In this document: positions 14,019 through 16,610 of the stretch, piece by piece
Numbering within the stretch: position 1 is the first letter of the stretch
Layout: each line of letters opens with the position of its first letter
DNA from: a bacterium
Lineage (GTDB): Bacteria > Bacillota_I > Bacilli_A > RF39 > UBA660
Reading direction: 5' to 3'
DNA length: 51,509 bases
Assembly (NCBI GenBank): GCA_029218465.1
Contig: JAQXRJ010000085.1
Coordinates: forward strand, 1 to 51,509
Translations under genes and position numbers: made by a program
The notes under the pieces: model-generated
What the model saw: the letters and a program-made list of their open reading frames with translations, nothing else
The model's database searches: none
Told to the model about the DNA's origin: nothing

Positions 14019-14217
14019 CATGATAATCCAGTTTATCCCTATATTTAGTTAATAATTTAGATAATACAAAAGTAAATATTGGATATATAATACTAATTTT
14101 TAATACAAAAGTAAGTAAACATAATATTAATGTCATAATGAGTAATAATATTATTAAATATCTAAGTACTTTACGGATTCTATAATTTTTATATTTTGTT
14201 TCATTATCTATTTTAAT
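14011..14217 (-). CDS. Candidate 68-aa single-TM protein with non-canonical (AUU) start
   Basis: Open frame IKIDNETKYKNYRIRKVLRYLIILLLIMTLILCLLTFVLKISIIYPIFTFVLSKLLTKYRDKLDYHDK; GGAG 7 nt before ATT; overlaps preceding stop by 1 nt; absent from ORF track. Confidence 0.4.
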   Translation of the reverse strand: MKIDNETKYKNYRIRKVLRYLIILLLIMTLILCLLTFVLKISIIYPIFTFVLSKLLTKYRDKLDYHDK

Positions 14218-14893
14218 AAGGCATCTCCATCTCAGATACTACCCATCTACTATTAATCTTTTCTATAACAAATTTGTTTATTTTATATGTATAATTGCAG
14301 TTATCTACACAGTCAATATCTGAATACATGCTTTTTACATTATATACAATTTTGTCATTACTTTCACTTACAATGTTATAGGAATCCATTTGTATATATC
14401 TTTCATCTCGGTCTAAAGAATATGGAATTACATATAATTCATTATTATAATCCAAATATTGTTCTCCAACCATTTTTGAAGCTAAATCATTAGATATATA
14501 TTTTCTTAAATAGGTTATTACATCATTTTTAGTTTTAAATTCACTGTCGCAAACTTTGTAATATATTTTTCCATCAAGAGTTTTATTACTATCTGTACAT
14601 ATTGATAACCAATTGGTTCCAAATGCAACTGAATTAGAAAGTGTATCTAATGTTACATAATACATTGAATCAAATAATTCATCTGTATTAATATCATTAT
14701 CTATAGTTGCATATTTGCCATCTCCACTAATACTATCGTCAGATAATGAATTAGACGTAAAATTAATATTACTAAACCAAACTCCCGCTCCACACAATGA
14801 TACTATTAAACATATAACCGTTACAAATATAATAGTTAATCCAGCCTTTCTTTTTTCTAGCAATACATTTTTTTTATTTTTTTTCTTTTCCAT
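14213..14893 (-). CDS. Hypothetical membrane-anchored protein
   Basis: 226-aa ORF with basic N-terminus and TM helix. Confidence 0.6.
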   Translation of the reverse strand: MEKKKNKKNVLLEKRKAGLTIIFVTVICLIVSLCGAGVWFSNINFTSNSLSDDSISGDGKYATIDNDINTDELFDSMYYVTLDTLSNSVAFGTNWLSICTDSNKTLDGKIYYKVCDSEFKTKNDVITYLRKYISNDLASKMVGEQYLDYNNELYVIPYSLDRDERYIQMDSYNIVSESNDKIVYNVKSMYSDIDCVDNCNYTYKINKFVIEKINSRWVVSEMEMPY

Positions 14894-14953: not shown

Positions 14954-15580
14954 TTATTGTTTTTTAAAAATAGTATAAGCCATAAGACCAATAACTACAA
15001 AAGTAAGTGCAAAAATTACTTTATTCAAACTTTTAGGATTATTTTCTGCGTTGTTTACAATTGCATCTGTTAAAAAATATTGAGAGCAATGATCTATACT
15101 AAATTCTGCATAACCATCGGTAACAATAATATCTTTTTCTATAAATTCAATTTTTTTTATATCTTCATTATAATAATATAAATACAATTTGTTACCATCT
15201 TTAAATTTATCAGAAACATCTACTTTTATACTTGCAGAGGTTGGTAAACTCCCATGATGTGAAAATGATAAATACTTTTTAGTAATGTTTCCTGCTATTG
15301 AATCAATTTCATCTTTTTTTTCACTTTCAAAATCAATATTAAAGTTTAATTTAATTTTATCATTAATTTTATTTTTATCAAATGACCATGAATACTCATA
15401 ATTTGTTTTTTTTTCCTTTATTTTAACAATTACCAAATTTTTATCAATTGTCTTAGAAATATAGTAATCATCTTCATTAATGCCATCAAATTCTACGAAA
15501 GGTTCTACGTCATTTAAAATTGAGGCATATATAAATTGAGGCATAAAAAACAATAGAATCATTATTAACAACTTTCTCAT
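14954..15580 (-). CDS. Secreted surface protein with C-terminal TM anchor
   Basis: Signal peptide MRKLLIMILLFFMPQFIYAS and C-terminal TM VIFALTFVVIGLMAYTIFKKQ. Confidence 0.6.
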   Translation of the reverse strand: MRKLLIMILLFFMPQFIYASILNDVEPFVEFDGINEDDYYISKTIDKNLVIVKIKEKKTNYEYSWSFDKNKINDKIKLNFNIDFESEKKDEIDSIAGNITKKYLSFSHHGSLPTSASIKVDVSDKFKDGNKLYLYYYNEDIKKIEFIEKDIIVTDGYAEFSIDHCSQYFLTDAIVNNAENNPKSLNKVIFALTFVVIGLMAYTIFKKQ

Positions 15581-15642: not shown

Positions 15643-16305
15643 TTAAGACAATAACAAAAATGTTAAAGGAATAAGCTGATAAACAAATTTGATTAACATA
15701 AGTATTATAATATTGTTATCATTTTTTATATAAGCTATGCTTAAGACTATCTCAGGAATAAAATACATCAAAAAATAAATAAATATATTTGATGTTGGAA
15801 AACCAATAAAAACAAATGTTATTAACGTATAAATCAAACCACTAATTATTACAAACAAAAACTTATTATCAAAAATATCAATGATTGACTTTCTAAAAAG
15901 CAATTCTTCGGCAATAATTGCAAAAATCATAGTTTTAAAAATAGTATAATATGTAGAAATTTCAAAAAGTGATGTTATTGCACCAGTATTATCATCAACT
16001 GCTAAATCAGGACAAATACTTTCAGTTATGATACCCATAATCATATTAGAAGCAAAAATAATAAATACCCATAATACAATCTTTTTAATTATTGTAGAAA
16101 TCTTAGTTATTTTTATTTTATTTATGCATCTTTTTAATTCATCCATGTATAAAAAAACAATCAAAAGTAAAAAAACAGCATCAAATAAAAACGAACATAA
16201 AATTGAATTTATTGCAAACTGATTAACAAGAAAAGTTATTATCGTTGGATAAATTAAATACATTAAAAATAACAAAAATGTTTTAACAATTTTTTTATCT
16301 TTCAT
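15643..16305 (-). CDS. CPBP-family intramembrane (Abi/CAAX-type) protease-like protein
   Basis: EELLFRKSIIDIF motif in a multi-TM protein. Confidence 0.75.
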   Translation of the reverse strand: MKDKKIVKTFLLFLMYLIYPTIITFLVNQFAINSILCSFLFDAVFLLLIVFLYMDELKRCINKIKITKISTIIKKIVLWVFIIFASNMIMGIITESICPDLAVDDNTGAITSLFEISTYYTIFKTMIFAIIAEELLFRKSIIDIFDNKFLFVIISGLIYTLITFVFIGFPTSNIFIYFLMYFIPEIVLSIAYIKNDNNIIILMLIKFVYQLIPLTFLLLS

Positions 16306-16372
16306 AACAATTCACACCTACCTTTATTAATATAATTATATCACACATAGAAAAAAAAAAAAGAAGAAAAGA

Positions 16373-16394
16373 AAAAAACTCAATTGAGTTTTTT
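16373..16394 (-). terminator. Perfect-palindrome terminator after tiny ORF
   Basis: AAAAAACTCAATTGAGTTTTTT with TTTTCTTTTC-type tract on minus strand. Confidence 0.75.
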
Positions 16395-16401
16395 CTTTAT
16401 A

Positions 16402-16431
16402 TTATAAAAATCTTCTTAACCATGCCCACAT
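16402..16431 (-). CDS. Candidate 9-aa peptide gene, MWAWLRRFL
   Basis: ATG TGG GCA TGG TTA AGA AGA TTT TTA TAA; GGGAGG 9 nt upstream; promoter upstream and terminator 7 nt downstream. Confidence 0.5.
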   Translation of the reverse strand: MWAWLRRFL

Positions 16432-16485
16432 GTTCAAAATCCTCCCTTCATATGTACTAAATTATACAAACTGTATCACACTATA

Positions 16486-16506
16486 TTGTATAATAGTATT
16501 ATACAA
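16486..16506. promoter_or_regulatory. Operator-like dyad TTGTATAAT-AGT-ATTATACAA
   Basis: 9-bp perfect inverted repeat overlapping the -10 of the tiny-ORF promoter. Confidence 0.55.
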
Positions 16507-16526
16507 CAAAGTATCACAGTTTACAA
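16498..16526 (-). promoter_or_regulatory. Sigma-A promoter for the tiny-ORF unit
   Basis: TTGTAA (16521-16526), 17 nt, TATAAT (16498-16503) on minus strand. Confidence 0.6.
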
Positions 16527-16581
16527 TAAATTTAGGATTATTTATAGAAAACATTTCAAATGTTTCTATCAAAAATAAAAA

Positions 16582-16610
16582 GCAGTATAGAAAATAAATC
16601 TAATACTGCT
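16582..16610 (-). terminator. Terminator downstream of rpmA
   Basis: AGCAGTAT...ATACTGCT stem-loop with A/T-rich flank. Confidence 0.6.

Follow-up and report, generated by a model that had tools for sequence, protein, structure and literature searches.

On the minus strand of the window (the whole stretch of DNA analysed, 51,509 nt) a stand-alone transcription unit lies between rpmA and a gene for a CPBP-family membrane protein. As the preliminary description had it, the unit contains a nine-codon ORF (start ATG 16431-16429, stop TAA 16404-16402), a GGGAGG Shine–Dalgarno (SD) sequence, a promoter of its own and a palindromic terminator. Its placement was likewise confirmed: rpmA is followed by its own hairpin (16610-16581) and the CPBP gene is preceded by its own extended −10 element. 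The features, read from upstream to downstream, are as follows.

16581..16610, minus strand: terminator-like hairpin of the upstream rplU-prp-rpmA operon, seen in the sequence.
16498..16526, minus strand: distal promoter-like TTGTAA-N17-TATAAT, a possible additional promoter, unconserved on comparison with relatives.
16486..16506, minus strand: 21-nt perfect palindrome TTGTATAATACTATTATACAA, seen in the sequence, overlapping the distal −10.
16461..16470, minus strand: proximal −10 TTTGTATAAT (TATAAT 16466-16461), probable conserved promoter element, agreeing in position with the −10 of relatives.
16441..16446, minus strand: Shine–Dalgarno sequence GGGAGG, strong and retained in relatives.
16402..16431, minus strand: micropeptide ORF MWAWLRRFL, 30 nt including the stop codon TAA, conserved in 15 genera.
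~16369..16398, minus strand: intrinsic terminator of the micropeptide unit, palindromic AAAGAAAAAACTC-AATT-GAGTTTTTTTCTT; terminator-like hairpins also lie 3′ of the peptide in relatives.
16335..16343, minus strand: extended −10 TGATATAAT, the CPBP gene's own promoter; a similar TGNTATAAT is found in most relatives.
15643..16305, minus strand: CPBP/Rce1-like membrane protein, 220 aa, with degenerate catalytic motifs (PF02517 match, subfamily score gap, motifs, structural model); proposed partner of the micropeptide.

That the unit has a promoter holds, but the element originally named for it, TTGTAA-N17-TATAAT, is not conserved and is itself one of 37 σ70-like matches in a 3.5-kb stretch, a number close to chance (33.5 expected). 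Because the −10 elements of relatives sit ∼ 35–57 nt 5′ of the micropeptide ATG, we favour the proximal −10. Promoter-like matches also occur on the opposite strand, where they would bear on an antisense RNA of a type I toxin–antitoxin system, but the total of matches does not exceed chance. The palindrome TTGTATAATACTATTATACAA is flanked by two TGTGATAC repeats in an operator-like arrangement that, among the genomes seen, is present in this one only. At L075, L080, L081, L106 and in the L043-L047 group an extra hairpin, e.g. TTAACTAATTAA...TTAATTAGTTAA, lies between the micropeptide stop codon and the terminator.

Comparison with relatives shows the nine-codon ORF to be a real gene under coding constraint. 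A degenerate peptide pattern matched 10 times in 389 family genomes and its reverse not at all; a looser pattern gave 17 against two for its reversed control. When 85,462 species (one genome each) were scanned, 23 matches were obtained, 18 genuine and five by chance. The genuine ones all stem from Bacilli-type metagenome-assembled genomes (MAGs) and 17 of the 18 have the CPBP gene downstream (at L048 it was seen through the overlapping locus L039). The five chance matches (L052, L055, L061, L063, L070) lie outside Bacilli MAGs, have neither an SD nor a CPBP gene, in the case of L063 contain an in-frame stop, and serve as an internal control. Two viral matches (L118, on a contig as long as that of L052, and L119, which encodes the same MWLWFIHFF) also have no SD and were rejected as chance. 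None of 1,800 micro-ORFs of 6–20 aa at control loci carries the conserved core ending, which together with the reversed-pattern control and the conservation across genera rejects a chance ORF.

Pattern matches and loci found through the CPBP gene together place relatives of the micropeptide in 15 genera of one family, all compared genomes being MAGs of uncultured gut Bacilli. When 15 representatives were compared, conservation was seen in the SD core and at most of the first and second positions of codons, whereas column identity in the flanks (0.33–0.35) is at the random background. The pN/pS of the ORF is 0.35, synonymous sites being more variable than non-synonymous ones. The codons are thus conserved while the flanks drift, as had been proposed as a check. 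A search for stop codons and frameshifts found none: in all relatives examined the peptide frame is uninterrupted.

The peptides are 9–12 residues long and follow the consensus M(0-3)-[WL]-x-W-[LF]-x-[RK]-F-[FL]-stop, in which the ending W-[LF]-x-[RK]-F-[FL]-stop is constant and the N-terminus varies in length. Variants at CPBP-found loci include MLRWLRRFF, MLRWLKRFF, MLRWLRKFL, MWKWLARFF, MWRWLSRFF, MLKWLLKFF, MFWSWLRRFL, MKFAWAWLKRFL, MMGILAWFRRFF, MFDWFLRMFR and MLRWLLFWL. Computed net charges are +1 to +3 and helical moments are high. Positions 3, 6 and 7 are polar or variable and the remainder hydrophobic, which predicts a short amphipathic helix. At L114 (G162) a diverged micro-ORF, MWSKILKYLSIFH, adjoins a diverged CPBP gene whose product has lost the EE motif and the Lys described below, a natural test of co-divergence.

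Since pattern searches favour conserved copies, loci found through the CPBP gene are the cleaner test of the proposed association between the two. In a profile search of one genome per genus (149), 16 genera scored at least 166 bits and all others at most 91 bits (paralogues); an order-level search did not find the subfamily outside the same family. The micro-ORF lies directly upstream at 12 of the 13 testable CPBP loci whose discovery did not involve the peptide pattern (L078, cut by a contig end, was left out). The sole exception, G069, keeps a related CPBP gene, and a search of its whole genome did not reveal the peptide; thus the CPBP protein does not strictly need the peptide in this one genome. 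Four pattern matches elsewhere in G069 were rejected, as they have other contexts and no SD, and one is antisense to an ftsK-like gene. Among the genomes checked, none bears the peptide without the CPBP gene.

Ancestrally the genes are ordered rplU-prp-rpmA-peptide-CPBP, and a gene for a 208-residue secreted protein often comes next. In at least three genera peptide and CPBP gene have left the rpmA site together, so a link of the peptide with rpmA was rejected, yet G444 keeps the peptide on the rpmA side (L065). There the peptide lies near rpmA and before hrcA, and the CPBP gene (284 bits), which has no micro-ORF in its leader, lies behind tig on a different contig. This retention of both genes without linkage favours action in trans over a cis-acting leader, with the caveat that it was seen in a single MAG and may reflect misbinning. 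Much of the linkage elsewhere is vertical inheritance of one ancestral order, and adjacency alone therefore overstates functional coupling. Peptide distances nevertheless correlate with CPBP distances when the distances of the rplU, prp and rpmA products are taken into account (partial Mantel r = 0.42, permutation p = 0.0005, n = 20), in a test that tends to false positives and may be over-optimistic. That the tiny gene and the degenerate CPBP gene travel together suggests that the peptide is the partner of that protein. A literature search found no such module of a CPBP protein and a small peptide.

The CPBP gene product matches PF02517 above the cut-off (E 2.5e-8). Its AlphaFold2 model (mean pLDDT 86.7) has Rce1 (4CAD) as top PDB fold match, with a probability of 0.90 but a TM-score of only 0.49 and an E-value of 0.49; a profile search of PDB sequences gave no match, and only the fold search reached Rce1. 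According to PMC3578759 the family is defined by the motifs EExxxR, FxxxH and HxxxN, of which one Glu and two His are putative cation-binding residues. The peptide-linked subfamily reads EELLF[RK]..YTxMN..IKFxYN where paralogues read EExxFR..FGxxH..HFxHN. Motif 1 is kept (EExxx[RK]). The His of motif 2 is Asn in most members (YxxxN) and is retained in L040, L058, L077 and L115; that of motif 4 is replaced by Lys (KxxxN), which is invariant in alignment A2. Nearly all paralogues of the same family keep the catalytic motifs including the His. The peptide-linked CPBP protein is, judged by these substitutions, probably not an active protease, contrary to the protease label it had been given, and with its metal-binding His lost it should not cleave peptides.

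We consider it slightly better than an even chance that the locus encodes a two-gene module, in which the leaderless micropeptide acts in trans on a non-proteolytic CPBP membrane protein, either as its dedicated ligand or as a regulatory subunit. Separate translation from a strong ribosome-binding site would presumably yield more peptide than CPBP protein, and the peptide would form a short, cationic and amphipathic helix lying at the inner surface of the membrane. It would most likely bind in trans to a CPBP-fold protein that keeps the Glu of the catalytic site and has lost both metal-binding His, its Arg/Lys perhaps seated in the cavity where Glu residues are retained. Conservation of the ending over many genera favours a dedicated CPBP ligand or subunit, since it points to a fixed protein or lipid target more than to a signal specific to one species or a toxin in an arms race.

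Small peptides that regulate bacterial membrane proteins are known from KdpF, AcrZ and CydX, transmembrane helices of ∼ 30–50 residues. The micropeptide resembles them as a tiny, here predicted, membrane-associated peptide dedicated to one membrane protein, but 9–12 residues cannot cross the membrane as one helix. On the protein side there are precedents for a CPBP fold whose catalytic residues are missing, as in SpdC/LyrA and LnsB (PMC7387801), or unneeded, as in Abx1, an Abi-domain protein that controls a histidine kinase without protease function (PMC3578759). The portions of these two sources available describe such proteins as regulators or chaperone-like subunits and assign no dedicated nonapeptide gene to them, unlike the present subfamily, which also has its own signature (YTxMN, IKFxYN).

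The main rival takes the product for a leaderless, membrane-active toxin or bacteriocin-like peptide against which the CPBP protein confers immunity. It is the main one because every peptide-bearing genome checked also has the CPBP gene, while one CPBP gene occurs without the peptide. Abi/CPBP proteins are established bacteriocin immunity proteins that accompany class II bacteriocins, and a gene for a putative membrane-active peptide near a CPBP gene recalls that arrangement; short cationic amphipathic peptides with Trp, Phe and Arg also resemble antimicrobial peptides. We nonetheless regard this rival as unlikely. The asymmetry, although the one expected for toxin and immunity, comes from one genome, G069, and the core of the peptide has stayed conserved across some fifteen genera, where bacteriocins usually diversify. 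Nine residues, no leader, degenerate CPBP motifs with the catalytic His lost and, at the carrier loci compared with the window genes, no shared exporter adjacent also set it apart from class II systems, and neither PADLOC nor NCBIfam made a defence or immunity assignment.

The preliminary description had pointed instead to signalling of the SIP/RopB type. Published leaderless communication peptides (LCPs) such as SIP and its relatives are, like the micropeptide, products of stand-alone ultrasmall ORFs of 8–10 residues without a leader, with a strong SD and their own promoter, and known examples begin with MW (PMC10518010). A secreted pheromone of this kind, sensed by a receptor other than RopB and served by the CPBP protein in the role of exporter, receptor or sensor adaptor, could draw on the example of Abx1 given above; we think it distinctly improbable. 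The partner here is a CPBP membrane protein and not an Rgg of the RopB clan: no Rgg-type receptor is apparent among the window ORFs, as had been noted, and the Rgg C-terminal domain (PF21259) exceeded the cut-off in one of 11 carrier genomes and in none of the other 10. The one carrier with such a match is that of L126 (G066:C41:317-757). An OppA-type binding protein was likewise found in one of 11 carriers; its rarity does not settle the matter, as LCPs can dispense with the canonical export and import machinery (PMC10518010). The one found lies in the window's own MAG (G000:C140, L128), which has 6% contamination, and may be foreign. Further, the peptides are cationic and amphipathic, not almost wholly hydrophobic, and their C-terminal core is shared across genera, whereas LCPs are species-specific, with distinct codes among close species (PMC10518010). 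The SIP/RopB analogy is not supported on these points.

The other role originally suggested, a leader peptide acting in cis to attenuate the CPBP gene by way of the terminator between them, would suit the order of promoter, micro-ORF, terminator and gene and the Trp-rich peptide, and is nevertheless very unlikely. It is disfavoured because G444 keeps peptide and CPBP gene on different contigs, with the peptide before hrcA and a CPBP leader free of a micro-ORF. In most loci, moreover, an extended −10 beyond the terminator belongs to the CPBP gene itself, the number of Trp varies, several variants have Leu at position 2, and the spacing from stop codon to terminator differs between loci. Least probable of all, and hardly credible, is a small regulatory RNA with an incidental or secondary ORF. 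The unit's own promoter and terminator and the extra hairpin in several lineages would fit it, but there is no Rfam match, conservation is confined to SD and codons with the untranslated regions at background, and synonymous variation exceeds non-synonymous.

The comparative evidence is thus strong that these uncultured gut Bacilli have a genuine gene of nine codons under constraint. Common gene finders apply length limits above nine codons. A global catalogue of small ORFs began at 30 nt (PMC11364881), and given both limits whole classes of such tiny genes may go unnoticed. Further examples can be sought with the motif WLx[RK]F[FL]-stop, preceded by a strong SD. A peptide partner for a degenerate CPBP protein would also bear on the role of the many non-proteolytic CPBP proteins. 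More tentatively, at somewhat less than an even chance, an intramembrane protease that has lost its activity may have the 9–12-residue leaderless micropeptide as its obligate ligand or subunit, the two forming a membrane module of an undescribed kind that is invisible to standard annotation. The micropeptide gene would then rank with the smallest conserved coding genes known whose product works with a protein partner of its own.

Two further genes lie downstream on the minus strand. The product of 14213-14893 has a weak match to the IseA DL-endopeptidase inhibitor family (PF16800, 22 bits, below the cut-off). The 208-aa secreted protein (14954-15580), which has a C-terminal membrane helix and no Pfam or NCBIfam match, is encoded 3′ of the CPBP gene in many relatives and occurs also at L033, L058, L066, L068, L077, L079, L111 and L113-L115; it is a possible third component of the module.
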